Assembly: GCA_015491935.1 (NCBI GenBank)
Contig: WGGB01000241.1
Span: 1-32,579, forward strand
DNA from: Alteromonadaceae bacterium
Lineage (GTDB): Bacteria; Pseudomonadota; Gammaproteobacteria; Enterobacterales; Alteromonadaceae
Length of the DNA stretch: 32,579 bases
Reading direction: 5' to 3'
Both the position numbers and the translations under genes were made by a program. Under the pieces are notes generated by a model that ran no database searches, had not been told where the DNA came from, and saw nothing but the letters and a program-made list of their open reading frames with translations. This document shows positions 4,093-23,728 of the stretch, piece after piece (the stretch's first letter is position 1; each line of letters begins with the position of its first letter).

Positions 4093-4151
4093 AAAATTAT
4101 AATTTATTAATAATCTAAAATAAGCGCGTATATTAGCAAAAAACTATTAAG

Positions 4152-4184
4152 GTTAAATAAATATTTTTAATCAATTTATTTAAC
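4152..4184. repeat. AT-only inverted repeat between kinase and mfd
   Basis: The 11-bp arms GTTAAATAAAT and ATTTATTTAAC are perfectly complementary around an 11-nt loop. On the minus strand the dyad lies 11 bp after the kinase stop, and a run of six T follows about 8 nt later. It could be a weak terminator of the narK-kinase transcript, or simply AT-rich DNA. The stem has only two G-C pairs, so it would be weak. Confidence 0.35.
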
Positions 4185-4195
4185 GAATGTATTCT

Positions 4196-5968
4196 TTAGC
4201 CATTAGCAAAAAGTGCGATAACCAATGCCAACATTAAAATCCAAAATCCTGATAATAATTGCCAAAAGAGGACTTGTGATTTGTGTTTTTTAACTTTGGG
4301 ATCATCACGTAAATAATTAGGGTTTGGATGTTTTAAGTCGTGCAAAAATTCTTCAATATTATCATAACGCTGCTCTAAATCAAAAGCAACACCACGCTGT
4401 AATGTGCGATCAAACCACATGGGTATTACTGGATTGGCTTCGCTGGCTTTAATATATCGTAAATGATCGTATTCAAAAGCGGTTTGGCATTCTTCTATTT
4501 TTTCACCGTAAGGTAATTTACCGCAAAACAGTTCATAGGTAATGGTGGCAAGGGCATATAAGTCACCTTGTACACCCGTATTTTTACCTAGTAAATACTG
4601 AGGATCAGAATAAGTTGCTGTGCCTAATACGCCTTCATGTTCAAGCGGAATAAAGACTTCGGCAAGACCTGCAACAAAAACAGAACCAAAATCAACAATT
4701 TTTACTTGTATTTCACCACTGTCATTGTTTTCATTTTCACTATCTAATATTAATATGTTGGCAGGTTTTAAATCTTGATGAATAGTTTCCATCTTATGAA
4801 AAGCAGATAAACCATCAGCAATTTGTTCCACAATTTTTATCGCTAATTTAGGTTTGGGAAAATGATGAGCAGCCATCCATTTGTCTAACGATACACCATG
4901 CACATATTCCATTAAATAATATAAACAGGTACGCGGGCGATTTTGGGCGATAATACGTACTACGTGTTCGCTTTGAATACGCTTTCCAATCCATTCTTCT
5001 TGAATAAAGCGGTCAATATAGCCAGTGTCTTCTAAAAAGTTTATCGAGGGGGTTTTCATTACCATGTGCTCACCAGTTTCAGTATCTTCAACTAAATAAA
5101 GTTGACTGCGAGAGCTGGCGAATAATTCTTTTAAGACTTTGTAACCATCTAGTATTACGCCTTCGTCAAGTGGTGGTGGAAAAGGGAGGCGCGTTAGTTT
5201 TGAATTATAATCATTTAAACTTTCATTAGGTAATTGATTTATTTGACAAAGTGAACCACTGATGTTGTCATCACTACCATTGTCAAAAGCAGTTTTAACT
5301 AGTTTTTCAATACGTTCTTGGCAAGAGGTTTGCTCTGCCATAATGTTTTTTATTTGCTCTGCATCAATAAAATCATGAATACCATCAGAGGTAACTAATA
5401 AAATATCATCTTTTTCTAACGTGAATGAGCCATAATCAATTTGAATGGAGTTATCCATGCCCATAGCACGTGCTAAAAAAGTACGCCCAGAGCCAATACT
5501 GGCTACATGATCACGGGTTAGTTGTTTAAACTCACCTTGTCGTAGTAAAAAAGCACGACTATCACCAGCATGAAAAAAATGACAGATTCTTGATTTTAAA
5601 ACAAGTGCAGTAAAAGTAGTTAAATAACCTTTTTCTTCATTGGTAAATTCATGACTACGTTTAAATAATGTTAAGTTGATGCTAGAAAGGATTTTTTGTC
5701 CTGAATGTTTTACTGACCAAGTATCTGGTGTTTGATAATAATCATCAATAAAACGCGTAATAGCCGTATGACTCGCTTCTTTACCGGCTTCTGCGCTACT
5801 AACACCATCAGCAACCGCGAGTACAATACCTTTTGATTCTAATTGGCGATTGTTTTTATCTTTGTCTTCTTGCGGAATAAAAAAACCAACCGCATCTTCA
5901 TTAGCCTCTTTTAAACCTTGTATTGAATGGCTAGCAAGATCTACTTGTAATTGGTTGGTTTCAGTCAT
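4196..5968 (-). CDS. Bifunctional PP2C phosphatase / Ser-Thr protein kinase, membrane-anchored
   Basis: This is a 590-residue fusion. Residues about 10-245 are a PP2C domain with its metal-binding aspartates in place: NED at 23-25, ADG at 53-55, GDSRAF at 135-140, SDG at 194-196 and DDN at 233-235. Residues about 272-545 are a Hanks-type kinase: ion-pair lysine K305 in VMK, HQDLKPAN with catalytic D399 (HQD rather than HRD), and DFG at 426-428. The nucleotide loop (FASSRSQLYL, about 283-292) lacks the usual glycines. A single membrane helix near 566-587 ends the protein, so both enzymatic domains should face the cytoplasm. It follows a nitrate transporter on the same strand. In Pseudomonas a related kinase gene (PA1782) sits between nirB and nasA, so a role in controlling nitrate/nitrite uptake is a reasonable inference. 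Its substrate is unknown. Confidence 0.85.
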   Translation of the reverse strand: MTETNQLQVDLASHSIQGLKEANEDAVGFFIPQEDKDKNNRQLESKGIVLAVADGVSSAEAGKEASHTAITRFIDDYYQTPDTWSVKHSGQKILSSINLTLFKRSHEFTNEEKGYLTTFTALVLKSRICHFFHAGDSRAFLLRQGEFKQLTRDHVASIGSGRTFLARAMGMDNSIQIDYGSFTLEKDDILLVTSDGIHDFIDAEQIKNIMAEQTSCQERIEKLVKTAFDNGSDDNISGSLCQINQLPNESLNDYNSKLTRLPFPPPLDEGVILDGYKVLKELFASSRSQLYLVEDTETGEHMVMKTPSINFLEDTGYIDRFIQEEWIGKRIQSEHVVRIIAQNRPRTCLYYLMEYVHGVSLDKWMAAHHFPKPKLAIKIVEQIADGLSAFHKMETIHQDLKPANILILDSENENNDSGEIQVKIVDFGSVFVAGLAEVFIPLEHEGVLGTATYSDPQYLLGKNTGVQGDLYALATITYELFCGKLPYGEKIEECQTAFEYDHLRYIKASEANPVIPMWFDRTLQRGVAFDLEQRYDNIEEFLHDLKHPNPNYLRDDPKVKKHKSQVLFWQLLSGFWILMLALVIALFANG

Positions 5969-5990
5969 AATTAAATTCTTAATATAAATT

Positions 5991-6066
5991 TTGTAGGTCG
6001 GCGCTTGCTCCGACAGTGTTTTTTATAAAAAATTGTCCTGCTTCGCTACACTCAGGACAACTACAA
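5991..6066. repeat. REP-like pair (BIME-type) with GTAG heads
   Basis: Two hairpins are bracketed by TTGTAG (5991-5996) and its complement CTACAA (6061-6066). The first pairs GTCGG (5997-6001) with CCGAC (6010-6014). The second pairs TTGTCCTG (6033-6040) with CAGGACAA (6053-6060). Read from each outer edge inward, each unit is a GTAG head followed by a hairpin, as in REP sequences mobilised by RAYT transposases. The first hairpin is the same design as the units at 23895-24018, with compensating base changes. No RAYT gene is in this window. Confidence 0.65.
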
Positions 6067-6205
6067 GGTTAAATTAATCCATTATTCTAAATAGTTGGTA
6101 TTACAACAAAGCCGACGAGTTTTTTCTGTCTGAGCTTAGCCTGCCTCTAATTAAATAAAATTGATTATAACTTACTAAAATTATTGGTTGTTTTAGCCTA
6201 AATAA

Positions 6206-6302
6206 TTGCGGCTGTAGTGAAGCTGTCGAGCTGCGAACCACCTGAGCTTAGTTCACTAAGTGATGGTGGTGAGCAGCGATGACAATAAAACTACGGTCGC
6301 AA
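6206..6302. repeat. 97-bp imperfect palindrome downstream of the narK-type gene
   Basis: The element is symmetric around 6253/6254. Nested arms pair as follows: 6206-6218 with 6290-6302 (two G-T pairs), GTC 6225-6227 with GAC 6281-6283, GCTGC 6230-6234 with GCAGC 6273-6277, ACCACC 6237-6242 with GGTGGT 6265-6270, and CTTAG 6247-6251 with CTAAG 6256-6260 around a TTCA loop. It starts 15 bp after the stop codon of the minus-strand transporter. It may be a non-autonomous repeat element, and as RNA it would form a long 3' hairpin. No U tract follows, so it is not a standard terminator. Confidence 0.6.
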
Positions 6303-6317
6303 GAATGACGGCTAAAT

Positions 6318-7793
6318 TTAAGATACGTCGATTAACTCTACCGTACCATCTTCTTTAACCTCAGCCATATGACCTTTAGGTTCAGTTAATAACATAGTGG
6401 CAAAAAATACAATGGCAGCAGAGGCGGCGATAACCATAAAGAAAGTGCTGTAATCAACAAATGACAATACAGTTAAATAAGTTACGGCACCCACATTACC
6501 ATATGCACCAGCCATACCCGCAATTTGTCCTGTCATACGACGTTTTACTAAAGGAACGATTGCAAATACTGCACCTTCACCAGCTTGTACAAAGAAAGAA
6601 CAAGCCATAGTCGCAATAACGGCAAGGGGAATTGCCCAAGTACCATCTACTTGACCTAAAACCATATAACCAACCGCTAAACCGCCCACTAAAATCATTA
6701 GGCTGTTACGACGACCAAACTTGTCACTAAACCAGCCACCAGTAGGGCGAGCTACTAAGTTCATAAAAGCAAAACCTGAAGCCAATAAACCGGCTTTAAC
6801 TGGAGACAAACCTTCAAAAGTATCAAGGAAAAATAATGGTAACATTGAAACTACCGCTAATTCTGAGCCAAAAGTAACAAAGTATGAAAGATCTAATATA
6901 GCAACTTGCTTAAACTCATATTTTTCAATGTCAGCAACACCATGTTTTAAATGTTCAGCATTTACACGCCAAATTGAATGTACTTGTACAACAAACAATA
7001 CAATTAAACCAATCCACATAATTTCCATTACTTGGCTTGAAAATAAATTTACACCAGCGGGTGATAATTTCCATGCGAGTACCGCTAAAGCAGCATACAT
7101 AGGAATATTCATAAATAAGTAAAAGTAAAAGTCTTTCCAGCTAGTAACTTCTAAGCCACCTGATTTTTTTGGTTTAAAATAGGTAGAGCCTTTAGGTGTG
7201 TTACGCGCAGCAATATAAAAGAAAATACCATAAATACCCGCAATAACACCCGTTAAACCAATAGCGTAACGCCAGCCGTCATCACCACCAAAAAATAATG
7301 CGAGTGAAGGTAAAGTCATTGCTGCAGCGGCACTACCAAAGTTACCCCAACCGCCATAAATGCCTTCGGCAATACCGACTTGTTTAGCAGGAAACCATTC
7401 GCCAACTAAACGAATACCAATAACAAAACCAGCGCCGACAAAACCAAGTAAAAATCTAAAAAGTGCTAATTGCTCAAAGCTATCAGCCATGGCAAAACCA
7501 ACACAAATAAAGGAGGAGATAATTAATAAGCCACTGTAAATAACTCGAGGACCAAATTTATCTACCAAAATACCAATAACGATACGTGCGGGGATAGTTA
7601 AAGCAACATTTAAAATCATTAAGGCTTTAACTTGGGCGCTAGATAAATTAAACGCCTCTTTTATAAAAACTAATAAAGGGGCATGGCTAAACCAAACCAC
7701 AAAGGTTAAAAAAAATGCAAACCAAGTAATATGGAGCATTTTTATTTTTGGATCCGCTAGGCTTAGCAGATTCATTTTTCCATCGTATGACAT
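6318..7793 (-). CDS. Nitrate/nitrite transporter, NasA/NarK type (MFS, NNP family)
   Basis: A 491-residue, roughly 12-helix carrier that moves nitrate and/or nitrite across the inner membrane. I use the ATG at 7791-7793 because AGGAG lies 8 nt upstream; an in-frame ATG ten codons earlier (7823) has no such site. Family marks are the substrate arginine in TIPARIVIG (about residue 70), the nitrate signature GGWGNFG (about 147-153), [12 protein letters not shown] in the second half, and a second glycine-rich signature, GAYGNVG, near 430. The sequence resembles the assimilatory NasA group more than the other two carriers here. It is followed on the same strand by the phosphatase-kinase and diverges from another NNP transporter, with an FNR-type site between them. 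No assimilatory nitrate reductase is in view, so whether it serves uptake for respiration or for assimilation is open. Confidence 0.88.
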
Positions 7794-7874
7794 ATCATTA
7801 ACTCCTGCATGTTGCCCATGCAATAATAGTAATTAAAATAAAATGTTAAAGTTTTAAATAAGCTTAAAAAAATA

Positions 7875-7881: not shown

Positions 7882-7910
7882 TAGTTTGCACTTTTGTGGA
7901 TTTAACTTTA

Positions 7911-7924
7911 TTGACACAGGTCAA
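7911..7924. promoter_or_regulatory. FNR/CRP-family dyad between divergent transporters
   Basis: TTGACACAGGTCAA is a perfect TTGAC-N4-GTCAA dyad, one base per half-site away from the FNR consensus TTGAT-N4-ATCAA and close to FixK/NnrR/Dnr-type sites. It can serve both directions. For the plus-strand gene a TATAAT at 7973-7978 would put the site near -67. For the minus-strand gene a weak TATA-like box near 7879-7884 would put it near -42 to -45. The intact symmetry in a 224-bp intergenic region between nitrate transporters makes it credible. Confidence 0.65.
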
Positions 7925-8017
7925 CAAAATGAATGTCAAAATATAGCAAAATACACATTAGTTAATTTATTCTATAATAACAAACTATTATCACTTTATT
8001 TTTTAGTTAGGTACTTT

Positions 8018-9289
8018 ATGGACATACAACAAAAACATTCTTACCGTGCTTTAACTATGGCTACGTTAGCGTTTGCTGCTTGTTTTTCTGTGTGGACACT
8101 TTATTCTATTTTAGGCATTGAATATAAAGAACGCTTTGATTTAAGTGCGACAGAGTTTGGTTTGTTGTTAGCGGCACCTATATTTACGGGAGCTATTTTT
8201 AGAATACCGATTGGTTTTTTAGCTGAAAAAATATCATGTCGCAAATTGTTTTTTTGGCAAATGTTATTAACGGCACCACCACTTTTTTATTTACCTTATG
8301 CTCAAAGCTATAGCTCTTTAATATGGTTAGGATTTGCTTTTGGTATTAGTGGCGTATCTTTTACCATAGGCATTCGTTATGTAACTGATTGGTTTGATAG
8401 TAAAAACCAAGGGTTTGCATTAGGTGTTTTTGGAGCAGGTAATGCTGGTGCTGCAATAACCTTAGTGTTTGTTCCTTTTATTATTAAATATTATGGTTGG
8501 CAAGCCATTGGTCCTATCTATGGCGCTGGAATGATTATTATAGCGATTTTATTTCGCCTTTTTTCTCCTGAAATTAGCCAATTTTATCAAGAAAAGAAAA
8601 AGCGCGATTTTCATTATTATGCTGCTCCATTGAAAGACTTAAAAGTATGGCGTTTTGGTCTTTATTATTATTTTGTTTTTGGTAGTTTTTTAGCGCTTAT
8701 TTTATGGTTGCCACATTATTATGTTGCGGCTTATAAATTGTCATTAACACAAGCCATGGCACTAACGTTATTGTTTGTTGCAAGTTCGAGTATGGTGCGA
8801 GCTGTTGGCGGTTGGTTTGCTGATGCCTATGGTGCTAGAACGGTTAACTGGACTGCTTTTTGGATTTGTATGGTTTGTTTGTTTTTTTTAAGCTATCCAC
8901 CCACAACGATGACTATTCATGGTGTAAATAAAGATGTAAATGTTTTTTTTGAAGTGAATATTTGGTTATTTACCTTGCTTATTTTTATTATTGGTATTGC
9001 GCAAGGTTTTGGGCGCGCAAGTGTGTATAAAACAATTTATGATTATTATCCTAATCATATGGGGAGTGTTGGTGGTTTAGTAGCGGCACTTGGCGCTTTA
9101 GGGGGCTGTACTTTGCCCATTATGTTTGGTGTTGCTGTTGATTTTATTGGCGTTTATAGTGCTTGCTTCATGCTACTTTATGGAGTGTTAGCTACGTGTA
9201 TGGTAGCTATGTATATGGCAGTGAGGGCAGAGCGTTATAAGAAATTATTGAATGACTCTATTGAAAATAATTTTTTAGAGCAAGATTAA
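8018..9289 (+). CDS. NNP-family MFS transporter (NarK-like), second carrier
   Basis: A 423-residue, roughly 12-helix carrier. The reading frame stays open to 7886, but the extra 44 residues would cover the promoter/FNR region and look unlike a carrier N-terminus. I therefore start at the ATG 8018-8020, with a weak TTAGG Shine-Dalgarno just upstream. The protein then begins MDIQQKHSYR, immediately before helix 1. Signatures are FRIPIGFL with arginine R62, GAGNAGA (about 139-145), and IAQGFGRASVYKTI plus a glycine-rich helix in the second half. These place it in the nitrate/nitrite porter family, but it is shorter and more divergent than the other two carriers, so substrate direction (nitrate import or nitrite export) cannot be assigned. 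The PqqD-like gene follows after a 45-bp gap and is probably cotranscribed. Confidence 0.82.
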   Translation: MDIQQKHSYRALTMATLAFAACFSVWTLYSILGIEYKERFDLSATEFGLLLAAPIFTGAIFRIPIGFLAEKISCRKLFFWQMLLTAPPLFYLPYAQSYSSLIWLGFAFGISGVSFTIGIRYVTDWFDSKNQGFALGVFGAGNAGAAITLVFVPFIIKYYGWQAIGPIYGAGMIIIAILFRLFSPEISQFYQEKKKRDFHYYAAPLKDLKVWRFGLYYYFVFGSFLALILWLPHYYVAAYKLSLTQAMALTLLFVASSSMVRAVGGWFADAYGARTVNWTAFWICMVCLFFLSYPPTTMTIHGVNKDVNVFFEVNIWLFTLLIFIIGIAQGFGRASVYKTIYDYYPNHMGSVGGLVAALGALGGCTLPIMFGVAVDFIGVYSACFMLLYGVLATCMVAMYMAVRAERYKKLLNDSIENNFLEQD

Positions 9290-12325: not shown

Positions 12326-12964
12326 TCAATGAGATATTTTATTCTCTATTGCCCATAATGCTGCTTCAACTCGTGATTTTAGGCCTAATTTTTTTAATAG
12401 GTTTTTTACGTGTACTTTTACGGTTGCTTCGGTAATGCCGAGTTTATTGGCGATATCTTTATTGCTTTTGCCGTTAGCAATAAGTTTTAAGTTTTCTAAT
12501 TCACGTTGCGTTAAACTCTCTAATAATGAATTTTTTTGTGGATTAGAACGCAAAGAGCGCACTAATATTTGTGTTAAAGGTTCACTTATTACAAATTCTC
12601 CTTTAAGGGCAATATTAATTTTTGTAATTAATTCTTCTGGTTCGCTGTCTTTGAGTAAATAGCCATCAGCATTAAATTTAAGTGCTTGTAGTACATCAGC
12701 TTCGTTATCTGAAACACTAAAAATAACAATTTTGCTTTTTACCTCTGCCCGTTTAAGTGCGCTTAGGGTGTCTATACCACTTAATCCTTTCATGTTCAAA
12801 TCAAGTAAAATTAAATCAACTGGATTTTTTATTGCCAATGCAATTGCTTCTTCACCAGAGCTTGCTTCTGCACTCACCTCTAAATTATCTTCAAGTGAAA
12901 TTAATTGAGCAACACCTTTACGTAACATGGGATGATCGTCAACGAGTAATATTTTAGCAGTCAT
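12326..12964 (-). CDS. narL: Nitrate/nitrite response regulator NarL
   Basis: A 212-residue NarL/FixJ-type regulator. The receiver domain (about 1-120) has the acidic pocket D9-D10, phospho-acceptor D55 in LILLDLNMKG, and the conserved lysine in DGYLLKDSEP (near 106). The LuxR-type helix-turn-helix (about 146-205) reads LTQRELENLKLIANGKSNKDIANKLG, then the recognition helix TEATVKVHVKNLLKKL. It is 56 bp downstream of narX on the same strand, a typical narXL operon. The presumed targets are the TACYYMT-like heptamers in the adjacent narX-narK intergenic region. NarP is a close relative; the linkage to narX, narK and narG favours the NarL name. Confidence 0.9.
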   Translation of the reverse strand: MTAKILLVDDHPMLRKGVAQLISLEDNLEVSAEASSGEEAIALAIKNPVDLILLDLNMKGLSGIDTLSALKRAEVKSKIVIFSVSDNEADVLQALKFNADGYLLKDSEPEELITKINIALKGEFVISEPLTQILVRSLRSNPQKNSLLESLTQRELENLKLIANGKSNKDIANKLGITEATVKVHVKNLLKKLGLKSRVEAALWAIENKISH

Positions 12965-13020
12965 TTTATTCTCTTTTTATTCTGTTTTTATTATTGTTTT
13001 AATCGCTATATTAATGGCTT

Positions 13021-14787
13021 TTATCTGTTAAAGCTTAAGCTGATTATTGTGCCATGAGGAGCTAAATTACTAATATTAATTAAGGTATTTAATGATTTTG
13101 CTCGTTCTTCCATGATCCCTAAACCAAAATGACCTGGTTGTGAAAATTCTTTTGGCAATCCGATGCCGTTATCGCTAATGCTTATTTTTACTTTATCACC
13201 ATCTTGATTTATTTCAATATTGGCTAATGTTGCCTTAGCGTGTCTGTGGATATTAGATAAGGCTTCTCTTACTATCTGCAATATATGTATTTCTTGATTG
13301 GCATTTAGATAGTTATCAGGCAATTGGTAACTTAATTTGATAGGATGTTGGCATTTTTCTTTAAATTCAGCAATAGTGCCTTGTAATGCACTTTCTAAGG
13401 AAGGATCGTCTAATTTTAATCTAAAGGTTGTGAGTAATTCTCTTAGTTGTAAGTAAGCATTATTTAAGCCTTGTTTTATGTCTTCAATGGTTTCATCAAT
13501 TTGTTCGGCAGCTACTTTTTTGTGCATTTTTCGGGTGAGTAAACTCATTTGAACTTTTAGGTATGAAAGTGATTGTGCCAATGAATCGTGTAACTCTCGT
13601 GCGATAACGGCACGTTCTTCTACAATTAATAATCGGTTTTCACTGTTTCGTTTTTGATCTAATTCAATTGCTGTCGCAATAATATCGGCTATGGCTTGTA
13701 GTATTTGTTGTTGCCACGGGGCTACTTTTTCATTTTTAGGGAATTGCCAAATTAAATAACCAAAAAGTAAGGTCTGTTTTTCTAAAGGAAATTTTAGATG
13801 GTTAAAACAAATATGATCTATGGTGTCAAAAGGGCTAACAATGTCAATAACTAAGTGATTATGCTGATGTTTATTTAGTTTTATACTGACACGACCAAAA
13901 CCTAAAACTTGTTCTAATTCTTTAATTATTTTCGGGTCAATTTGTTGGTTTTCTTTAGCTGATATATGGTGTGAATCATAACTGGTTAGCTGTTTTGCTG
14001 CATGATAAAGCATTTCTAACGATTGATTTGACTGGGTTAGTTGCTGAGTTTTTTGTGCTACTCGTTGTTCAAAATCTTGGTAGGTGCTTTTTAGTTCACT
14101 CGCCATTTGATTAATGGCACGTGATAATACGCCTAATTCGTCATCTCCTTGATATTGAGCTTTAAGCTCAAAGTTTCCTTTTCCCGTTTCATTCGCTACC
14201 TTAACTAGTTGTTTTAACGGTATTATAACTGATTTATTTAATTTTATTAATACGATAGTTGATATGATCAAGACTAAGAGTAAGCTTATACCTTGAATTA
14301 ATCTTAATATGCTGAGTTTTTTTTCTGACTCAATTTGTAGTAGTGTAACTAACTTATCAATTACATCGACAAAACGATCAAATTTAGCAAAAATTTGTTT
14401 GTTTTTTTGTGGCGAATAAGGAATATCTTTTTGTTGCTTTATTTTTTTCCAAGCATTGATTAAATCTTGATATTGTTGTGCTATTTCTTCATTACTGCCT
14501 GAGCTTAATAACCCACCAGCCAATAAGTTTTTTAAATGCTGATCAAAATTTTTAATTTCTTTGTCAAGTAACTGCTTATCAGTATTTTGAATCATATAAG
14601 CTCTAGATATACGTATAGCTTGCATTCTTAATGCACCCGCACTATTAATTTTAGCGGCATCACCACTAAGACTTTCAGTGACTAGCATAGAAGAAATCAT
14701 GCTGATAATACCCAACGTGATTATAAGCGTAATAATTTGCCCAACACGGGCAACTAAAGAGGTACTTGACGAGGTTTCGTTAAACAA
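13021..14787 (-). CDS. narX: Nitrate/nitrite sensor histidine kinase NarX
   Basis: 588 residues. The only upstream start consistent with a full first membrane helix is TTG at 14785-14787; a stop lies seven codons further up, and the first ATG would cut helix 1. No clear Shine-Dalgarno is seen, so the start is uncertain. Layout: helix 1 (about 15-35); a periplasmic helical domain with a P-box-like INSAGALRMQAIRISRAYM (about 42-60), the ligand-binding motif of NarX/NarQ; helix 2 (about 165-185); HAMP (about 186-238); coiled coil; a GAF-like linker (about 265-385); the HisKA_3 box RELHDSLAQ with H400; and an HATPase domain with REALSNIHRHA and DNGIGL. The Cys cluster of E. coli NarX is not evident, so NarQ-like naming is possible. 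Upstream of narL in one operon. Confidence 0.88.
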   Translation of the reverse strand: MFNETSSSTSLVARVGQIITLIITLGIISMISSMLVTESLSGDAAKINSAGALRMQAIRISRAYMIQNTDKQLLDKEIKNFDQHLKNLLAGGLLSSGSNEEIAQQYQDLINAWKKIKQQKDIPYSPQKNKQIFAKFDRFVDVIDKLVTLLQIESEKKLSILRLIQGISLLLVLIISTIVLIKLNKSVIIPLKQLVKVANETGKGNFELKAQYQGDDELGVLSRAINQMASELKSTYQDFEQRVAQKTQQLTQSNQSLEMLYHAAKQLTSYDSHHISAKENQQIDPKIIKELEQVLGFGRVSIKLNKHQHNHLVIDIVSPFDTIDHICFNHLKFPLEKQTLLFGYLIWQFPKNEKVAPWQQQILQAIADIIATAIELDQKRNSENRLLIVEERAVIARELHDSLAQSLSYLKVQMSLLTRKMHKKVAAEQIDETIEDIKQGLNNAYLQLRELLTTFRLKLDDPSLESALQGTIAEFKEKCQHPIKLSYQLPDNYLNANQEIHILQIVREALSNIHRHAKATLANIEINQDGDKVKISISDNGIGLPKEFSQPGHFGLGIMEERAKSLNTLINISNLAPHGTIISLSFNR

Positions 14788-14960
14788 AGTGCTATCGCTA
14801 TATTAGTTATTAGTGTCATTAATAATGAGTAGCATACTGAAAATATGGTTGTTGTGATAGTTCTACTACTAAATAGTTGTTAATACTTATTCTGACTTTG
14901 ATACTTTTTAATTTTTTTTGTTTTTTCAATCAAATCATATTATTACATTGCTAGTGTCAC

Positions 14961-14976
14961 TACTACTTAAGTGGTA
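14961..14976. promoter_or_regulatory. 7-2-7 NarL-type inverted heptamers
   Basis: TACTACT, TA, AGTGGTA: two inverted heptamers (TACTACT and TACCACT) with the 2-bp spacing that NarL prefers. Each departs from TACYYMT only at position 5. The centre is at about -93.5 from the predicted narK start, close to the NarL position in E. coli narK. Another TACTACT lies at 14864-14870, nearer narX. Confidence 0.55.
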
Positions 14977-15013
14977 GTTATCTGTATCTGGAGTATTTTC
15001 TTTTTCTGCCTTT

Positions 15014-15027
15014 TTGATCTGTATCAA
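15014..15027 (+). promoter_or_regulatory. Consensus FNR site of the narK promoter
   Basis: TTGATCTGTATCAA is an exact match to TTGAT-N4-ATCAA. Its centre (15020.5) falls at -41.5 from a start near 15062 that is predicted by the extended -10 element at 15046-15054. That is the class II FNR activation geometry. Confidence 0.85.
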
Positions 15028-15045
15028 TATTGATTTATATCTAAT

Positions 15046-15054
15046 TGCTATTTT
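15046..15054 (+). promoter_or_regulatory. Extended -10 element of the narK promoter
   Basis: TGCTATTTT, a TGn extended -10 with a weak hexamer and no -35, as expected for a promoter that depends on FNR. The predicted transcript starts at about 15061-15062, leaving a leader of about 82 nt before narK. Confidence 0.55.
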
Positions 15055-15143
15055 AGCCTCAGTTAGAAATAAATCTTTGTGAAATAAACGGTTCTTTTAT
15101 GCTAGGAACTAAATTAAAAAATACTGATAAGTTGGAGAAAACA

Positions 15144-16748
15144 ATGTCAGATATCGAAAAATGGGACGTAGAAGATCCCAAGTTTTGGGAAAGTGAAGGT
15201 AAAAAGGTTGCTAATCGCAACCTTTGGATCTCTATTCCAAGCTTACTCTGTGGTTTTGCAGTATGGTTATATTGGGGGATCATTACGGTTCAAATGTTAA
15301 ACTTAGGTTTTCCATTTGAAAAATCAGAATTATTTACGCTAATGGCTATTGCGGGCTTAACAGGTGCAACATTACGTATTCCCAGCAGCTTTTTTATTCG
15401 TTTATGTGGTGGTCGTAATACGATTGTATTTACTACCGCGTTACTTATATTGCCAGCTGTTGGTGCAGGTATCGCCTTACAAGACATAAATACGCCATTA
15501 TGGGTTTTTCAAGGTCTTGCTTTGTTGTCTGGTTTTGGTGGTGGTAACTTTGCCTCTTCAATGTCTAACATCAGTTTTTTCTTCCCTAAAAAACAACAAG
15601 GTTTAGCATTAGGCTTAAATGCTGGTTTAGGTAACTTTGGTGTTACTACAATGCAAATTTTAGTGCCTTTAGTGATGACTTTTGGTTTGTTTGGTGGAGA
15701 CCCAATGACCTTAGTGAATACTTCGGGTACATTAATTGGCAAAATTCCCGCAGGTAGTGATGCGTGGATTTTTAATGCTGGTTATGTATGGCTTTTATTC
15801 TTAGTACCACTCGTTATTGTTGGTTGGTTTGGTATGAATAATATTAAAGCGCCTCATGTAACGCCTGATTTACCAAACCCTATTATTTCTTTTGGTATGA
15901 TTTCAATTATGTTATTAATTGGTTTTGCCACTGCAATTGCTGGTTTGTGGTTATTGTTGCCCGCTTCTGTTAACGGTTCTGGTTTTGGTGTTCCTAAAGA
16001 AATGGTATTAATTGGTGTTGTTGGTGCAACGGTAATGCTATTAAAATTTTTACCCGGTAAAATCAAAGAAAATTTAGATCGTCAATATAAAATATTTAAT
16101 AATCCTCACACTTGGGTAATGAGTGTTATTTACACGATGACTTTTGGTTCTTTTATTGGTTTTGCGGCGGCTTTTCCTCTTTCTATAAAAGTTATTTTTG
16201 GTTATCAACATATTATGGTTGATGGTGTAATGACACATAATACGATTAATGCTAATGGTCCTAGTGCGTTAATGTATGCTTGGATGGGTGCCTTTATTGG
16301 TGCGTTAATTCGTCCTATCGGTGGTTGGATGGCTGATAAAATGGGTGGCGCTAAAGTAACACAATATTGTTCAGTGGTTATGGTTGCTAGTGCATTAGGT
16401 GTGGCTTACTATATGAAACAAGCTTATGCGAGTGCAACACCAGAAGAATATTTTGTGCCGTTTTTTGTGTTGTTTTTATTCTTATTTGCGGCAACAGGTA
16501 TTGGCAATGGTTCTACCTTCCGTACTATTTCAATGGTATTTAATAAAGAACAAGCTGGTCCTGTATTAGGTTGGACTTCTGCTATCGCAGCTTACGGTGC
16601 ATTTTATATTCCTAAAGTGTTAGGTGAGCAAATTAAATTAACGACACCAGAAAATGCCTTAATTGGTTTCGCAATATTCTATGCCGTGTGTATCGGTATT
16701 AACTGGTGGTTTTATTTACGTAAAGGTGCTGAGCATCATAATCCTTAA
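15144..16748 (+). CDS. narK: Nitrate/nitrite transporter NarK
   Basis: A 534-residue NNP-family carrier. I start at ATG 15144-15146, which has GGAG (15134-15137) at good spacing; the upstream ATG at 15099 would add 15 residues without a ribosome site. After a charged 27-residue N-terminus come about 12 helices. Marks are ATLRIPSSFF with a substrate-binding arginine, the first nitrate signature AGLGNFG (about 160-166), ALIRPIGGWMADKMGG, and the second signature TGIGNGSTFR (about 451-460). This is the respiratory NarK type, expected to exchange nitrate for nitrite or import nitrate with protons. The FNR and NarL sites upstream and narGHJI downstream (185-bp gap with a terminator-like hairpin) show it serves nitrate respiration. 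Confidence 0.92.
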   Translation: MSDIEKWDVEDPKFWESEGKKVANRNLWISIPSLLCGFAVWLYWGIITVQMLNLGFPFEKSELFTLMAIAGLTGATLRIPSSFFIRLCGGRNTIVFTTALLILPAVGAGIALQDINTPLWVFQGLALLSGFGGGNFASSMSNISFFFPKKQQGLALGLNAGLGNFGVTTMQILVPLVMTFGLFGGDPMTLVNTSGTLIGKIPAGSDAWIFNAGYVWLLFLVPLVIVGWFGMNNIKAPHVTPDLPNPIISFGMISIMLLIGFATAIAGLWLLLPASVNGSGFGVPKEMVLIGVVGATVMLLKFLPGKIKENLDRQYKIFNNPHTWVMSVIYTMTFGSFIGFAAAFPLSIKVIFGYQHIMVDGVMTHNTINANGPSALMYAWMGAFIGALIRPIGGWMADKMGGAKVTQYCSVVMVASALGVAYYMKQAYASATPEEYFVPFFVLFLFLFAATGIGNGSTFRTISMVFNKEQAGPVLGWTSAIAAYGAFYIPKVLGEQIKLTTPENALIGFAIFYAVCIGINWWFYLRKGAEHHNP

Positions 16749-16779
16749 GTATTCACATAAAGAATAAGGATATTATGAA

Positions 16780-16821
16780 GAAGGTTGGTTTTTAATTAAT
16801 ATAAAAATCGGCTTTCTTTTT
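16780..16821 (+). terminator. Terminator-like hairpin between narK and narG
   Basis: Arms 16780-16793 and 16803-16816 pair over 14 bp, four of them G-U, with a 9-nt loop, and five T (16817-16821) follow directly. This is the shape of an intrinsic terminator of moderate strength, so narG is either reached by read-through or has its own promoter. A possible -10 is TACAAT at 16867-16872, with no good -35. I see no FNR-type dyad in 16822-16933. Confidence 0.6.
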
Positions 16822-16933
16822 AACTCTTTAATCGTAATAGTACCTTAATAAATTTAACTACTAAATTACAATAAACCGTCTATCCTTTAGATTATTTAAG
16901 CTTAAGTCGGTTCATTTCAACGGAGAAAAAAAG

Positions 16934-19900
16934 ATGAGTCATTTTCTTGATCGCTTACAGTTTTTTAAAAAGAAAACTGGCGAATTTAGCGACGGTCATG
17001 GTGATACTACCAATGAAGGTCGTGAGTGGGAAGACAGCTATCGCCAACGCTGGCAACATGACAAAATAGTACGTTCAACCCATGGGGTAAACTGTACGGG
17101 GTCTTGTTCATGGAAAGTTTATGTTAAAAATGGTTTGGTTACTTGGGAAACCCAACAAACTGATTACCCGCGTACTCGCCCTGATTTACCAAATCATGAA
17201 CCACGTGGTTGTCCTCGTGGAGCAAGTTACTCTTGGTATTTATACAGCGCTAACCGTCTAAAATATCCCAAAGTGCGCAAACCATTATTAAAATTATGGC
17301 GCGCTGCGCGTGCAACGATGGATCCTGTTAAAGCTTGGGGGAGTATTGTTGAAGATAAAACTAAGTGCGATGCTTATAAATCAAAACGTGGTTTAGGAGG
17401 CTTTGTTCGCTCTAGTTGGGATGAAGTGAATGAAATAATTGGTGCAGCTAACGTTTATACTACAAAAACATATGGACCCGATCGGGTTGTAGGTTTTTCA
17501 CCTATTCCAGCGATGTCTATGGTTTCTTATGCTGCTGGTTCTCGTTATTTATCTTTAATTGGTGGTGTTTGTTTAAGCTTTTATGATTGGTATTGTGATT
17601 TACCTCCTGCTTCTCCACAAGTATGGGGTGAACAGACAGATGTACCTGAATCAGCAGACTGGTATAATTCAAACTATATCATTGCTTGGGGTTCTAATGT
17701 TCCACAAACTCGTACCCCTGATGCGCATTTCTTTACAGAAGTTCGTTATAAAGGTGCCAAAACGGTTTCAATTACGCCTGATTATGCTGAAGTTTCAAAA
17801 CTTACTGATGAATGGTTAAACCCTAAACAGGGTACTGATGCTGCCTTGGGTATGGCTTTTGGTCATGTTATTTTAAAAGAATATCACTTAGAAAAACCAA
17901 GTGAATATTTTACTAATTATGTTCGTCAATATACTGATTTTCCAATGTTGGTATTGCTTGAAAAACTTGATGGTCCTGCAGTTGACGGCACTTCATTTAA
18001 ATCAACACGCTTTTTACGCGCTTCAGATTTAGCGGATAATTTAGGCCAAGAGAATAATCCAGAATGGAAAACTATTGCTTTAGATGAAAATACTAATGAA
18101 CTTGTTTCGCCTACTGGCTCTGTTGGTTACCGTTGGGGAGAAAAAGGTAAGTGGAATATTCAAGAGCGTGAAGGTAAAACAGGTAGCGAGACCAAATTAC
18201 AATTAACTTTGCTTGGTGATAACGCTAACGTAACCCCTGTAGCATTTCCTAACTTTGCTGCGGATGCTACCAATACGGCGTGGACAGCTGATGGACAAGA
18301 AGCTATTCAAGTACGTAATGTGCCAAGTAAAACCATTATGAGTGCTGACGGAAAGGAATACTTAGTCGCTACGGTTTATGATTTAATGATGGCTAACTAT
18401 GGTATTGATCGTGGTTTAGGTGGTGAAAATGTCGCCTCTAGTTACGATGATGCTAGCGTTCCTGGCACTCCGGCTTGGCAAGAAAAAATTACGGGCTTAG
18501 ATCGCTCAAAAGTGATTAAAATTGCGCGTGAATTTGCCGATACTGCGGATAAAACCAAAGGTAAGTCAATGATCATTGTTGGTGCTGGTATGAATCACTG
18601 GTATCACTTAGATATGAATTATCGTGGTCTAATGAATATGGTAATGATGTGTGGTTGTGTTGGTCAATCTGGCGGTGGTTGGGCGCATTATGTGGGTCAA
18701 GAAAAACTACGTCCACAAACTGGTTGGTTGCCCCTTGCCTTCGGTTTAGATTGGTCTCGTCCACCGCGTCAAATGAATGGTACTTCATTCTTTTACAATC
18801 ATTCGTCACAATGGCGCCATGAAAAATTAAGTGTTCATGAAACCTTGTCACCTTTGGCGAATAAAGAAGAATTTCCTGAACATACGCTTGACTATAATAT
18901 TAAAGCAGAACGTATGGGCTGGTTGCCGTCTGCACCACAGTTAAATCGTAATCCTTTACAATTAGTTAAAGATGCTGAAGCGGCGGGTATGTCGGCAAAA
19001 GATTTTGCGGTACAAGAGCTTAAAAACGGCAACTTAAAATTTGCTGCTGAAGCGCCAGATGCACCAGAAAACTTCCCGCGTAATATGTTTATTTGGCGTT
19101 CAAACTTACTGGGTTCATCAGGTAAAGGCCATGAATATATGCTTAAATATTTATTGGGCGCTAAAAATGGCGTTATGAATGAAGATTTAGGTAAAACTGA
19201 AGGCTTTAAGCCAGAAGAAGCAGAATGGGTAGAAGAAGGGGCAACAGGTAAATTAGATCTTGTAACCACATTAGATTTTAGAATGTCATCAACCTGTATG
19301 TATTCAGATATCATTTTACCTACAGCAACATGGTACGAAAAAGATGATTTAAATACTTCTGATATGCATCCATTTATTCATCCATTATCAACTGCCGTTG
19401 ATCCTGCATGGGAAGCAAAATCTGATTTTGAAATATTTAAAGGTATCGCGAAAGCATTTTCTGAAGTTGCAGTAGGCACACTAGGTGTAGAGCAAGATTT
19501 TGTTACGGTGCCAATGTTACATGATACTGTTGGCGAATTAGCACAACCGTTTGATGTAAAAGATTGGAAAAAAGGTGAGTGTGATTTAATTCCAGGAATT
19601 ACGGCGCCTAATATGGTAACGGTAGAGCGTGACTATCCTAATATTTACAAGCAGTTTACCTCTGTGGGTCCATTATTAGAAAAATTAGGCAATGGCGGTA
19701 AAGGTATTGGTTGGAATACAGAAGAAGAAGTGAAACTGTTAGGTGATTTAAATCATCGTGTTACTGACGAAGGTATTAGTGAGGGTCGTCCTCAGCTTAA
19801 TTCTGCTATTGATGCTGCTGAAATGGTATTAACCTTAGCACCAGAAACCAATGGTAATGTTGCGGTTAAAGCATGGGAAGCGATAGGTGAGTTTACAGGA

Positions 19901-20737
19901 CTTGATCATACGCATTTGGCTAAACCTAAGCATGATGAAAAAATTCGTTTTCGTGATATTCAAGCACAACCACGTAAAATTATTTCTTCACCCACATGGT
20001 CTGGCTTAGAAGATGAACACGTGAGTTATACCGCTGGTTATACCAACGTACATGAGTATATCCCGTGGAGAACAATCACAGGGCGTCAACAGTTCTATCA
20101 AGATCATAAATGGATGCAAGCATTTGGTTCGCAAATGATGTCTTATCATCCACCGATAGACACTAAAACGACAAAAATGATTAAAAACAGTAAACCTAAT
20201 GGTAACAAAGAAATTGTACTTAACTGGATCACCCCACATCAAAAATGGGGTATTCACAGTACTTATTCTGATAACTTGTTAATGTTGACATTATCTCGCG
20301 GTGGTCCAATTATTTGGATGAGTGAGGTTGATGCAAAAGAAGCGGATATTGAAGATAACGATTGGGTTGAGGTGTTTAACGAGAATGGAGCTATTGCTTG
20401 TCGCGTGGTTGTTTCGCAACGAGTTAATCAAGGTATGACCATGATGTACCATGCTCAAGAACGTATTATGAATATACCTGGTAGCGAAATGACAGGTACG
20501 CGTGGTGGCCATCATAACTCAGTAACTCGCGTAGTGATGAATCCAACACATATGATTGGTGGTTATGCACAACAAGCTTATGGCTTTAACTACTACGGTA
20601 CGGTTGGCTCTAATCGTGATGAAATGGTAGTTATACGTAAAATGGATAAGGTGGACTGGTTAGATGATGATTGCTTTGACGCTAGCAACACTGATAAATT
20701 ACCACGTGCTCTTCCAACTAACCCAGATAAAGCTTAA
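16934..20737 (+). CDS. narG: Respiratory nitrate reductase alpha subunit NarG
   Basis: 1267 residues, against 1247 in E. coli. It is the molybdenum bis-MGD catalytic subunit that reduces nitrate to nitrite on the cytoplasmic side using quinol electrons passed through NarI and NarH. Ligands of the FS0 [4Fe-4S] cluster are present in the characteristic His/Cys form: H50, C54, C58 and C93. The region YDWYCDLPPASPQVWGEQTD (about 216-235) contains the aspartate that coordinates Mo in E. coli (D222). The N-terminus (SHFLDRLQFF) has no cleavable signal, as in other cytoplasm-facing NarG. GGAG precedes the ATG. narH starts 11 bp after its stop, with tight operon spacing. Mo-cofactor synthesis genes are not in the window. 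Confidence 0.98.
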   Translation: MSHFLDRLQFFKKKTGEFSDGHGDTTNEGREWEDSYRQRWQHDKIVRSTHGVNCTGSCSWKVYVKNGLVTWETQQTDYPRTRPDLPNHEPRGCPRGASYSWYLYSANRLKYPKVRKPLLKLWRAARATMDPVKAWGSIVEDKTKCDAYKSKRGLGGFVRSSWDEVNEIIGAANVYTTKTYGPDRVVGFSPIPAMSMVSYAAGSRYLSLIGGVCLSFYDWYCDLPPASPQVWGEQTDVPESADWYNSNYIIAWGSNVPQTRTPDAHFFTEVRYKGAKTVSITPDYAEVSKLTDEWLNPKQGTDAALGMAFGHVILKEYHLEKPSEYFTNYVRQYTDFPMLVLLEKLDGPAVDGTSFKSTRFLRASDLADNLGQENNPEWKTIALDENTNELVSPTGSVGYRWGEKGKWNIQEREGKTGSETKLQLTLLGDNANVTPVAFPNFAADATNTAWTADGQEAIQVRNVPSKTIMSADGKEYLVATVYDLMMANYGIDRGLGGENVASSYDDASVPGTPAWQEKITGLDRSKVIKIAREFADTADKTKGKSMIIVGAGMNHWYHLDMNYRGLMNMVMMCGCVGQSGGGWAHYVGQEKLRPQTGWLPLAFGLDWSRPPRQMNGTSFFYNHSSQWRHEKLSVHETLSPLANKEEFPEHTLDYNIKAERMGWLPSAPQLNRNPLQLVKDAEAAGMSAKDFAVQELKNGNLKFAAEAPDAPENFPRNMFIWRSNLLGSSGKGHEYMLKYLLGAKNGVMNEDLGKTEGFKPEEAEWVEEGATGKLDLVTTLDFRMSSTCMYSDIILPTATWYEKDDLNTSDMHPFIHPLSTAVDPAWEAKSDFEIFKGIAKAFSEVAVGTLGVEQDFVTVPMLHDTVGELAQPFDVKDWKKGECDLIPGITAPNMVTVERDYPNIYKQFTSVGPLLEKLGNGGKGIGWNTEEEVKLLGDLNHRVTDEGISEGRPQLNSAIDAAEMVLTLAPETNGNVAVKAWEAIGEFTGLDHTHLAKPKHDEKIRFRDIQAQPRKIISSPTWSGLEDEHVSYTAGYTNVHEYIPWRTITGRQQFYQDHKWMQAFGSQMMSYHPPIDTKTTKMIKNSKPNGNKEIVLNWITPHQKWGIHSTYSDNLLMLTLSRGGPIIWMSEVDAKEADIEDNDWVEVFNENGAIACRVVVSQRVNQGMTMMYHAQERIMNIPGSEMTGTRGGHHNSVTRVVMNPTHMIGGYAQQAYGFNYYGTVGSNRDEMVVIRKMDKVDWLDDDCFDASNTDKLPRALPTNPDKA

Positions 20738-20748
20738 GGAGTAGAATT

Positions 20749-22293
20749 GTGAAAATTCGTTCTCAAATAGGTATGGTATTAAACCTTGATAAGTGTATCG
20801 GGTGTCATACATGTTCAATTACTTGTAAAAATGTTTGGACCTCGCGTGAAGGTGTTGAATACGCGTGGTTTAACAATGTCGAAACAAAACCTGGTATTGG
20901 TTACCCTAAAGAATGGGAAAATCAAGACAAGTGGAAAGGTGGTTGGATACGTAAATCTGACGGTAACATCGAACCTAAAATTGGTGGTAAATACCGTGTG
21001 TTAGCCAATATTTTTGCTAACCCGAATTTACCTGAAATTGATGATTACTATGAACCATTTGATTTTGATTATCAGCATTTGCATACTTCACCAGAAGTAA
21101 AACATCAGCCAACAGCTCGTCCTCGCTCTGTTATTACCGGCAAGCGTATGGAAAAAATTGAGTGGGGTCCAAACTGGGAAGAAATTTTAGGTACAGAGTT
21201 TGAAAAACGCTCTAAAGACAAAAATTTCGATAATATGCAAAAACAAATGTACGGTGAATTTGAAAACACATTCATGATGTATTTACCGCGTTTGTGTGAG
21301 CATTGTTTAAATCCAGCGTGTGTGGCTTCTTGTCCATCAGGCGCAATATACAAACGTGAAGAAGACGGTATTGTCTTGATTGACCAAGAAAAATGTCGTG
21401 GCTGGCGTATGTGTATTTCGGGTTGTCCGTATAAAAAGATTTACTTCAACTGGAAATCAGGAAAATCAGAAAAATGTATTTTCTGTTATCCTCGTATTGA
21501 AGCAGGTCAACCAACAGTTTGTAGTGAAACGTGTGTAGGTCGTATTCGTTATTTAGGGGTCATTTTATATGATGCCGATAGAATTAAAGAAGTGGCATCT
21601 ACACCATCTGAAACTGATTTATACGAGAAACAATTAGAAGTTTTCTTAGATCCAAATGATCCCGCTATTATTGCGCAAGCACGTAAAGATGGTATTGCTG
21701 ATTCAATCATTGAGGCAGCACAAAAATCTCCTGTATATAAAATGGCGATTGATTGGAAACTAGCATTACCATTGCACCCTGAATATCGTACTTTACCTAT
21801 GGTTTGGTACGTACCGGCATTGAGCCCAATTCAAAGTGCAGTTGACTCAGGTACTTTGGCTACTATTGGTAAAGCTGGTGTTATTCCTGATATTCGCGCT
21901 TTGCGTATTCCGCTTAAATATTTGGCGAATTTGCTAACGGCTGGTGATGAAGAGCCTGTTGCTCGTGCATTAGAGCGTTTGCTTGCTATGCGTGCTTATA
22001 AACGTGCTGAAAATGTTGAAGGTGTTGAAGATTTACAAGTATTGGAAGATGCGGGTTTATCTAAAAAACAAGCCGATGAAATGTATCGTTATTTAGCCAT
22101 TGCTAATTATGAAGATCGTTTCGTTATTCCAACAGGCCATCGTGAAATGAATGTTCCTGAAGCTTACGGTGAAAAATCAGGCTGTGGTTTTACCTTTGGT
22201 AATGGCTGTAGTGATGGTGGAAATGACGTTAATATGTTCGGTGGTAAAAAAATCACCAAACGTGACATCATTAAAACTGTGAATGTTGGTTAG
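20749..22293 (+). CDS. narH: Respiratory nitrate reductase beta subunit NarH
   Basis: 514 residues from a GTG start (20749-20751) with AGGAG upstream. It is the iron-sulfur electron-wire subunit between NarI hemes and NarG. Four cysteine groups are visible: C16/C19/C22/C26 at the N-terminus; CEHCLNPACVASCP (about 183-196); CRGWRMCISGCP (about 217-228), in which tryptophan replaces one cysteine as expected for the [3Fe-4S] cluster; and CIFC with the later CSETC (about 243-264). All ligands expected for three [4Fe-4S] and one [3Fe-4S] cluster appear intact. narJ follows 9 bp after the stop. Confidence 0.98.
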   Translation: MKIRSQIGMVLNLDKCIGCHTCSITCKNVWTSREGVEYAWFNNVETKPGIGYPKEWENQDKWKGGWIRKSDGNIEPKIGGKYRVLANIFANPNLPEIDDYYEPFDFDYQHLHTSPEVKHQPTARPRSVITGKRMEKIEWGPNWEEILGTEFEKRSKDKNFDNMQKQMYGEFENTFMMYLPRLCEHCLNPACVASCPSGAIYKREEDGIVLIDQEKCRGWRMCISGCPYKKIYFNWKSGKSEKCIFCYPRIEAGQPTVCSETCVGRIRYLGVILYDADRIKEVASTPSETDLYEKQLEVFLDPNDPAIIAQARKDGIADSIIEAAQKSPVYKMAIDWKLALPLHPEYRTLPMVWYVPALSPIQSAVDSGTLATIGKAGVIPDIRALRIPLKYLANLLTAGDEEPVARALERLLAMRAYKRAENVEGVEDLQVLEDAGLSKKQADEMYRYLAIANYEDRFVIPTGHREMNVPEAYGEKSGCGFTFGNGCSDGGNDVNMFGGKKITKRDIIKTVNVG

Positions 22294-22302
22294 GAGAGCG
22301 TT

Positions 22303-23040
22303 ATGTTAATTCTTAAAGTAATTTCACGTTTGCTCGATTATCCTAGCGCAGAAATGTTTGCGGCAAAGGATGAGCTTATTGCAATCGTTGAAAAAACGAC
22401 TGAATTGACTGAACAAAACCGCACTCAATTGGTTGATTTTATCAACCAATTGACGGCTAGAGACATTTTTGATGCACAAGAAAGCTACGATTTGTTATTT
22501 GATCGTGGCCGAGCATTATCACTATTGTTATTTGAACACGTTCATGGCGAATCGCGTGATCGTGGTCAAGCAATGGTTGACTTAATGAATGTTTACAAGT
22601 CGAATGGTTTTGAAGTTGATTCGTCACAATTGCCTGATTATATTCCGCTTTATCTGGAGTTTTTAAGTGAGCAGCCAATCGAGTTTGTTGAAGAATGGCT
22701 TGGTGATGTTGTGCATCTATTAACGATGTTATCAGAGCGCTTAATTGATAGAGACTGTTATTATTCGATTCTTTTTGATGCTTTAATTGATATTTCAGGT
22801 CAACAAGTTGACCGTCAAGAAATTAAAGAATCAGTAAAAAAAGAAGAACGTGATGACACTCTCGAGGTGATCGATAAAGAGTGGGAAGATAAAGAAATTC
22901 GTTTTGATGATCCTATGGTGGACAGTTGTCCTTCTTCAAATGGGTTACAAAACTCACAACATTCATTAGATCCAAATACTGTACATCAAGTGCCAATTAA
23001 GTGGCATGATGCAGACGCGGCTGAAGTTGCGGGATTATAA
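22303..23040 (+). CDS. narJ: NarJ, nitrate reductase assembly chaperone
   Basis: 245 residues (E. coli 236). NarJ is a cytoplasmic TorD/DmsD-type helical chaperone that binds NarG for Mo-cofactor insertion and is absent from the final enzyme. The start MLILKVISRLLDYPS and the family hallmark LLFEHVHGESRDRGQAMVDL (about 75-95), with PDYIPLYLEFL (about 107-117), are clear. The C-terminal third is acidic and low in recognisable structure, as in other NarJ. GGAG precedes the ATG and narI starts 10 bp after the stop, so it is expressed within the operon. Confidence 0.97.
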   Translation: MLILKVISRLLDYPSAEMFAAKDELIAIVEKTTELTEQNRTQLVDFINQLTARDIFDAQESYDLLFDRGRALSLLLFEHVHGESRDRGQAMVDLMNVYKSNGFEVDSSQLPDYIPLYLEFLSEQPIEFVEEWLGDVVHLLTMLSERLIDRDCYYSILFDALIDISGQQVDRQEIKESVKKEERDDTLEVIDKEWEDKEIRFDDPMVDSCPSSNGLQNSQHSLDPNTVHQVPIKWHDADAAEVAGL

Positions 23041-23050
23041 GGAGAAACTT

Positions 23051-23728
23051 ATGTCAAATTTAAATTTTTTATTATTTGGGATTTATCCCTATATTGCTTT
23101 AGCGGTGTTCGTCGTTGGTTGTTGGATCCGTTATGATCGCGAACCTTATACTTGGAAAGCCGACTCTAGTCAGCTTTTAGATCAAAAAGGTTTTAGACTA
23201 TCAAGTAACTTGTTTCACATTGGTATTATTTTTGTCTTGTGTGGCCATTTTGTTGGTTTATTAACGCCAGCCTCAATATATCATCATGTGATCACCAGTC
23301 CACAAAAACAATTGTTGGCGATGATCAGTGGTGGTAGCTTTGGTTTGTTATGCTTAGTTGGTTTAGTGATGTTATTAAAACGTCGCTTAATGAATCCAAG
23401 AGTGCGTGCGACATCAAAAACATCAGACATTGTTATTTTAGTGATGTTATTGATCCAATTATTGCTTGGTTTATCAACCATTTTTGCTTCCGCACAACAT
23501 TTAGATGGTGTAGAAATGGAACATTTAGCAGAATGGGCTCAAGGTATAGTGACTTTGAGAGGTGTAACTGCGTCAGAAGCAATAGCTCATGTTGATTTGA
23601 TTTTTAAACTACACATATTTTTTGGTTTAACCTTACTTGTGGTTTTCCCATTTACACGTTTAGTTCACATGATCAGCGTGCCTGTAAAATATTTTGCACG
23701 TAACTATCAACTCGTTAGAGAAAGATAA
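23051..23728 (+). CDS. narI: Respiratory nitrate reductase gamma subunit NarI (cytochrome b)
   Basis: 225 residues, the same length as E. coli NarI. I use the ATG 23051-23053 with AAGGAG (23039-23044) overlapping the narJ stop; an upstream ATG at 23006 lies inside narJ. Five membrane helices carry two b-type hemes and the quinol site. The four axial histidines are recognisable: H56 and H66 (FHIG...CGHF), and H188 and H206 (KLHIF, RLVHM). It anchors NarGH to the membrane and passes electrons from quinol to NarH. It is the last gene of narGHJI; a strong hairpin follows. Confidence 0.98.
   Translation: MSNLNFLLFGIYPYIALAVFVVGCWIRYDREPYTWKADSSQLLDQKGFRLSSNLFHIGIIFVLCGHFVGLLTPASIYHHVITSPQKQLLAMISGGSFGLLCLVGLVMLLKRRLMNPRVRATSKTSDIVILVMLLIQLLLGLSTIFASAQHLDGVEMEHLAEWAQGIVTLRGVTASEAIAHVDLIFKLHIFFGLTLLVVFPFTRLVHMISVPVKYFARNYQLVRER

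Follow-up and report, generated by a model that had tools for sequence, protein, structure and literature searches.

A PP2C-kinase fusion with a glycine-free nucleotide loop, paired with nitrogen-anion transporters: a probable built-in switch for nitrogen uptake

In a stretch of 32,579 nt from an Alteromonadaceae bacterium (GCA_015491935.1, contig WGGB01000241.1, positions 1-32,579 of the forward strand; hereafter the window), a gene joining a protein phosphatase to a protein kinase follows a gene for a nitrate carrier, which raises the question of what such a protein does there and whether its conserved partner is the carrier or a nitrate reductase. Ammonium shuts bacterial nitrate uptake within minutes, as does oxygen in denitrifiers, and to our knowledge the molecular cause of this rapid shut-off is largely open outside cyanobacteria. 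The features discussed below are collected in Table 1.

Table 1. Features of the locus, in coordinates of the window
Feature	Position	Strand	Basis
PP2C-kinase-TM fusion gene (ATG start, 590 aa)	4196..5968	-	ORF list, Pfam, AlphaFold2
C-terminal helix, residues 557-589, predicted tail anchor	4202..4300	-	AlphaFold2
Ser/Thr kinase domain, residues ~274-546	4331..5149	-	Pfam, AlphaFold2, Foldseek
HQD catalytic loop, residues 397-399	4772..4780	-	alignment of 129 homologues
Glycine-free nucleotide loop FASSRSQLYL, residues 283-292	5093..5122	-	homologue alignments
PP2C phosphatase domain, residues ~8-245	5234..5947	-	Pfam, alignment, AlphaFold2; D25, D54, G55, D195, D234, N235 conserved
Carrier-kinase gap, ~350 nt	5969..6317	-	longer than in sister loci (30-250 nt)
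NNP-family nitrate/nitrite MFS carrier (TIGR00886), cognate partner	6318..7823	-	curated profile score, pairing survey
Carrier C-terminal cytosolic tail, position 494	6321..6383	-	Thr 71, Ser 8, Glu 2 in 81 linked carriers
Carrier TM6-TM7 cytosolic loop with T209, S213, T214, T227, S228	7134..7208	-	alignment of linked carriers
Divergent second NarK-type carrier (NarK2)	7886..9289	+	profile score, relatives' loci
Respiratory nitrate cluster: narL, narX/Q, NarK-type carrier, narGHJI	12326..23728	.	profile scores

Make-up of the fusion and its nucleotide loop

Both catalytic halves of the fusion were recognized by Pfam well over the cut-off (PP2C_2, E 2.5e-14; Pkinase, E 8.5e-31), and an AlphaFold2 model built from nine sequences (mean pLDDT 83.6) delimits the same two domains and matches, in Foldseek, the PP2C phosphatases 2pk0 and PppA and the kinases PknB and PknI. 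The chain is predicted to end in a single hydrophobic helix, the C-terminal membrane helix proposed in the initial annotation, and this segment is hydrophobic in every one of the 20 homologues aligned; neither the Pfam matches nor the model reveals a separate sensor domain. A PP2C domain placed N-terminal to a kinase in a single chain is the arrangement of the PP2C-tethered kinases, which the accessible part of a 2005 report by Krupa and Srinivasan presents as uncharacterised, with members in P. aeruginosa (gi|9947763), P. putida and P. syringae (PMC1262709). These proteins resemble the product of the window gene in carrying an N-terminal PP2C and a C-terminal Ser/Thr kinase domain, whereas the same part of that report mentions no transporter partner, C-terminal membrane helix or loop and, unlike its description, the window locus lies near respiratory narGHJI. 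PA1782, a presumed member of the family, is listed among the three putative Ser/Thr kinases of P. aeruginosa with no function given (PMC8560001). Likewise, the NCBI name "bifunctional protein-serine/threonine kinase/phosphatase", given automatically to homologues (e.g. Shewanella, Psychrobacter, Acinetobacter plasmids), assigns no function, and the fusion reached the cut-off of no curated NCBIfam model covering it. The PrkC/PrpC and Stk1/Stp1 pairs share both catalytic domain families with the fusion, but they are separate proteins with PASTA ectodomains and no transporter partner; against the PASTA kinase model NF033483 the fusion scored 134 bits (cut-off 450), and it also stayed below the cut-off of NF033484. 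The family is already known, and the open-access literature searched yielded no report of a transporter pairing or of a function.

The initial annotation had described an intact PP2C metal site and an intact Lys/Asp/DFG kinase set together with a nucleotide loop devoid of glycine and an HQD catalytic loop, all of which are read in the window protein. The kinase half lacks the GxGxxG glycine-rich loop of Hanks-type kinases, and carries their VAIK lysine, alpha-C glutamate, catalytic Asp/Asn and DFG aspartate (K305, E324, N404 and D426-F-G among them); the phosphatase half displays the metal-binding aspartates and the fold of the PP2C (PPM) family. Residues were counted in 129 aligned homologues, down to ~28-30% identity. 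In this set K305, H397, N404, D426, G428 and, in the PP2C domain, D54 are invariant, E324, D399, D195 and D234 are kept in 128 sequences and D25 of the PP2C domain in 126. The loop segment contains no glycine in 108 homologues and one in the other 21, and its replacement is itself conserved, as L-x-x-S-x-R-[ST]-x-x-[YF]-L, with R287, S/T288 and Y291 under constraint; the catalytic loop reads HQD in 87 and HRD in 37.

The missing glycines, and likewise the fusion (PMC1262709), are family-wide traits, not peculiar to the window gene. It might be argued that the kinase half is a pseudokinase, a non-catalytic nucleotide binder or scaffold that has lost its glycine loop and leaves only the PP2C half at work, as the prevalence of glycine-free loops and of HQD in place of HRD would allow. 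Nevertheless, four residues that pseudokinases often lose (K305, D399, N404 and D426) are kept in 128 or all of the 129 homologues, and the loop itself is constrained, which makes this reading quite unlikely. A pseudokinase arisen by decay was rejected as likely, the catalytic residues being near-invariant: conservation of the glycine-free loop together with an intact catalytic set argues against decay, and points to an old family trait that stands beside a complete catalytic apparatus. A loop of this kind lends itself to the study of ATP binding by a kinase that lacks the classic motif.

Pairing with NNP and FNT transporters

Homologues were collected from relatives, from 274 genomes sampled evenly across the class and from named records, and their flanks were retrieved; the survey is confined to the phylum of the window, and comprises many drafts and MAGs, mechanical gene calls and loci that are not independent. 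A scan of genome contigs with too general a kinase motif returned mostly unrelated kinases, and from it L083-L090 alone were useful. The upstream side could be read for 126 kinase copies, and in 112 of them the gene immediately upstream, in the same orientation, encodes a transporter: an NNP (NasA/NarK) carrier in 88 cases and a carrier of the unrelated formate/nitrite family (FNT) in 24, with a median gap of 78 nt. Four of the other 14 adjoin a transporter in another orientation and ten have no such neighbour; about 8% of the kinases have no NNP or FNT gene within 1.5 kb, and the exceptions (L042, L089, L167, L241, L243, L249, L256, L257 and L310) stand beside unrelated genes and share no other partner. 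The rule is also obeyed by 18 of 20 further loci, hand-picked for diversity, which include Pseudomonas-type nas clusters of the order divergent NNP-kinase-nirB-nirD-nasC; PA1782 is presumably the nas-cluster homologue in P. aeruginosa.

The converse holds as well. In the 274 genomes the kinase is found directly downstream of 66 of the 72 NNPs of at least 50% identity, and adjoins none of the ten NNPs below 50%. Of the six exceptions, two lie at contig ends, one is a second NNP that converges with a kinase, one is separated by 5 kb from a kinase linked to an FNT, and two come from genomes without a kinase match, in one of which (G162) the start of a kinase is seen, cut by a contig end. By genome, 68 have both genes, two the carrier only, 26 the kinase only and 178 neither, with a Fisher p of 8e-40 that is descriptive and not an exact probability, given that the genomes share ancestry. 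The correlation between carrier and kinase distance matrices (r = 0.32, 0 of 2000 permutations) is not used as an argument, as the distances saturate and shared ancestry is uncontrolled.

Assimilatory enzymes are near the kinase in only about half of the pairs: among main-type NNP pairs flanked on each side by 6.5 kb or more, 31 have nirBD/nasC, one has nar and 23 have neither. A reductase as partner was accordingly rejected, nirBD/nasC being absent within 6.5 kb of 23 of these 55 pairs, and the two-way test supports the transporter as the conserved partner, as the initial annotation had suggested from the window itself. The circumstance that it had named as fatal to that view, homologues lying mostly away from NNP transporters, is not what the survey found, since most kinases that are not directly downstream of an NNP adjoin an FNT instead. 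In the window the carrier does precede the kinase on the same strand, and its score of 316.9 bits with TIGR00886 exceeds the curated NarK-family cut-off of 311.7. The initial annotation was right that an assimilatory reductase is missing, nirBD/nasC being absent beside the carrier and the kinase in the window, but it overlooked the respiratory narGHJI at 16934-23728, accompanied by narXL and two further NarK-type carriers. The genome of the window holds two NNP-kinase pairs, the one near narGHJI and another, NNP-kinase-nirB-nirD, on a different contig (L004), their carriers being 60% and their kinases 35% identical.

The second partner, FNT, displays a similar behaviour. Of 25 FNT homologues of at least 63% identity, 20 adjoin a kinase, 18 of them on the same strand, sometimes with a cyanase gene between, and two divergently, and none of 16 weaker homologues (<63% identity) does so. 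FNT pairs with flanks of the same minimum length (6.5 kb on each side) are accompanied by cyanase in eight cases, by nirBD/nasC in three and by neither in five. Three changes suffice to place the FNT label on the kinase tree, a number that none of 500 shuffles matched, and the window kinase falls in an NNP-only clade. In one locus (L270 448-4527, G541:C42) an operon reads porin-like gene-kinase 1-FNT-kinase 2; by its coordinates an NNP precedes the porin, and the two tandem kinases have diverged from each other. In this order each transporter thus has its own kinase. The FNT-kinase-cyanase set is also carried on small mobilizable plasmids, which suggests a mobile module for cyanate use whose FNT carrier may import cyanate. 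Such cassettes were seen in Psychrobacter and Acinetobacter at L336 (NZ_MN657039.1) 4867-7947 and L337 (NZ_CP059387.1) 3398-6713. The two-way pairing of the kinase with NNP and FNT carriers appears to be new to the open-access literature searched.

A few loci deviate in other ways. In a nar cluster (L038 3793-12143) the kinase is located between NarK2 and the nar genes, with the NNP 3.3 kb off on the other strand, and on a Shewanella aestuarii plasmid (L335, NZ_CP050314.1) it occupies the same place, no NNP being seen in 13.7 kb. In L250 and L251 the kinase is followed by nirB-nirD-nasC and has no adjacent NNP; the upstream ORF of the latter (427-1815) starts like a second protein kinase (GKGGNAAVW). 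The paralogous kinase of the window genome (L004 10387-12315) differs from its relatives in that its PP2C domain is interrupted at residues ~115-165 by a low-complexity insertion, EQSSHHAELVSASQQ.

A proposed switch on nitrate import

Based on this linkage and on the domain make-up, the gene is probably a built-in switch for nitrogen uptake, and we propose, with a probability of roughly 60%, that it encodes a membrane-anchored bifunctional kinase-phosphatase dedicated to the upstream transporter, on which it would act as a reversible phospho-switch that sets nitrate import. We infer that the protein is active, that the carrier is its substrate, which way the effect goes, what the signal is and that the two genes are co-transcribed. 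The C-terminal helix would anchor the protein at the inner membrane, where the kinase half would phosphorylate cytosolic hydroxyls of the NNP carrier, in the C-terminal tail (DG[T/S]V) and/or in the TM6-7 loop, and the PP2C half would take the phosphate off. Import would thus be set by the state of the cell, e.g. ammonium or glutamine supply in assimilation; near narGHJI the useful signal might rather be oxygen, energy state or nitrate. Since two opposing activities in one chain need a switch, and no separate sensor domain is visible, the state of the carrier itself or a small ligand may set the balance between them. Extended to both folds, the proposal would be that of a widespread bacterial system in which each nitrogen-anion transporter, be it an NNP that carries nitrate or an FNT with cyanate or nitrite as its probable substrate, has its own membrane-anchored glycine-free-loop kinase-phosphatase as a reversible switch; we judge the chances of this to be even.

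A precedent is found in plants, in which phosphorylation of NRT2.1 at the C-terminal Ser501 inactivates the carrier and the PP2C phosphatase CEPH reactivates it (PMC10944928, PMC10773996); by analogy, the phosphorylated bacterial carrier would be the closed form. The plant carrier belongs to the same transporter superfamily, and the proposed bacterial switch would work like the plant one, with a PP2C; in plants, however, hormones control the kinase and the phosphatase, which are two distinct proteins. If the proposal is true, bacteria would have their own counterpart of the NRT2.1/CEPH switch, one that could account for the rapid control of nitrate uptake, and the gating of a transporter would be added to the few defined tasks of bacterial Ser/Thr phosphorylation. 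With the kinase-phosphatase gene beside the carrier, the cause of this rapid control becomes directly testable by a single-gene deletion.

Candidate phosphosites are found in the carrier. The five hydroxyl residues of the TM6-7 loop are 93-100% Ser/Thr in kinase-linked main-type carriers, the tail of which reads AEVxPDG[T/S]VxxI, with Asn at position 494 in one later locus (L302). Neither the loop feature nor the tail is present in NarK2/NarK3-type carriers. The single close NNP found in a kinase-less genome (G250) has PDGA, with Ala at the site, two NNPs in nar clusters with no adjacent kinase (G109, G200) miss the tail, and another unlinked NNP (G287) keeps the tail Thr and has lost the GST of the loop; these contrasts, few and confounded with clade, serve as leads. 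Conservation of the loop and tail also marks one carrier clade and may be structural, and both regions are poorly modelled by AlphaFold2 (pLDDT about 30-45). The divergent NNP (Pseudomonas-type) and the FNT partners have different termini without this tail, and therefore the site would differ between partners.

Co-regulation or a part in sensing could also explain the pairing, without the carrier being phosphorylated. The transporter might be a transceptor whose transport state controls the kinase-phosphatase, the latter modifying a soluble regulator or reductase; the pairing with two unrelated folds fits a sensor as well as a substrate, and a fusion without its own sensor domain agrees with such a role. 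However, the enzymes downstream vary or are absent nearby, so that no constant neighbouring target is offered, and hydroxyl sites are conserved in the linked carriers, which leaves sensing by the transporter rather doubtful. That carrier and kinase are functionally unlinked, their proximity being mere inherited gene order or co-regulation in nitrate operons, is in our opinion very unlikely: many loci do share common descent, and about half of the NNP pairs do belong to nas-type clusters, but the flanks are reshuffled and the pair stays, down to 33% kinase identity, and the linkage is two-way, recurs with FNT through the three label changes on the kinase tree and persists on plasmids. The kinase domain also matches the PD-T4-6 and mad6 profiles of phage-defence kinases, a role that we consider extremely improbable, because the similarity is that of a generic kinase domain (MAD6 of NCBIfam, 90 bits against a cut-off of 460) and the surrounding context is nitrogen transport; a defence system was rejected in the lack of any full-length match or defence context.

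Other features of the window

The carrier-kinase gap of the window, ~350 nt against the family median of ~78 nt, contains two imperfect palindromes, TGTCCTGAGTGTAGCGAAGCAGGACA and GTCGGAGCAAGCGCCGAC. No second copy of TGTCCTGAGTGTAGCGAAGCAGGACA was found in the draft genome with up to 3 mismatches, and a reading as a repeat element was dropped for this motif, unique in the draft genome; an Rfam scan found no RNA element, and promoter and terminator scans performed no better than shuffles. The island NarK2-NNP-kinase recurs in relatives (L034-L037, L039, L301 and L302). A small PqqD-related protein (weak NCBIfam matches) is encoded at 9335-9730, with the divergent NarK2 on one side and a YegD-type HSP70 gene on the other, and similar small ORFs adjoin NarK2 in L034 and L035. 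A 636-aa ORF without an NCBIfam match is located at 26400-28310, between an aminotransferase gene and rimP, and a PpiC/NifM-like peptidyl-prolyl isomerase is encoded at 24052-24879, right after narI.
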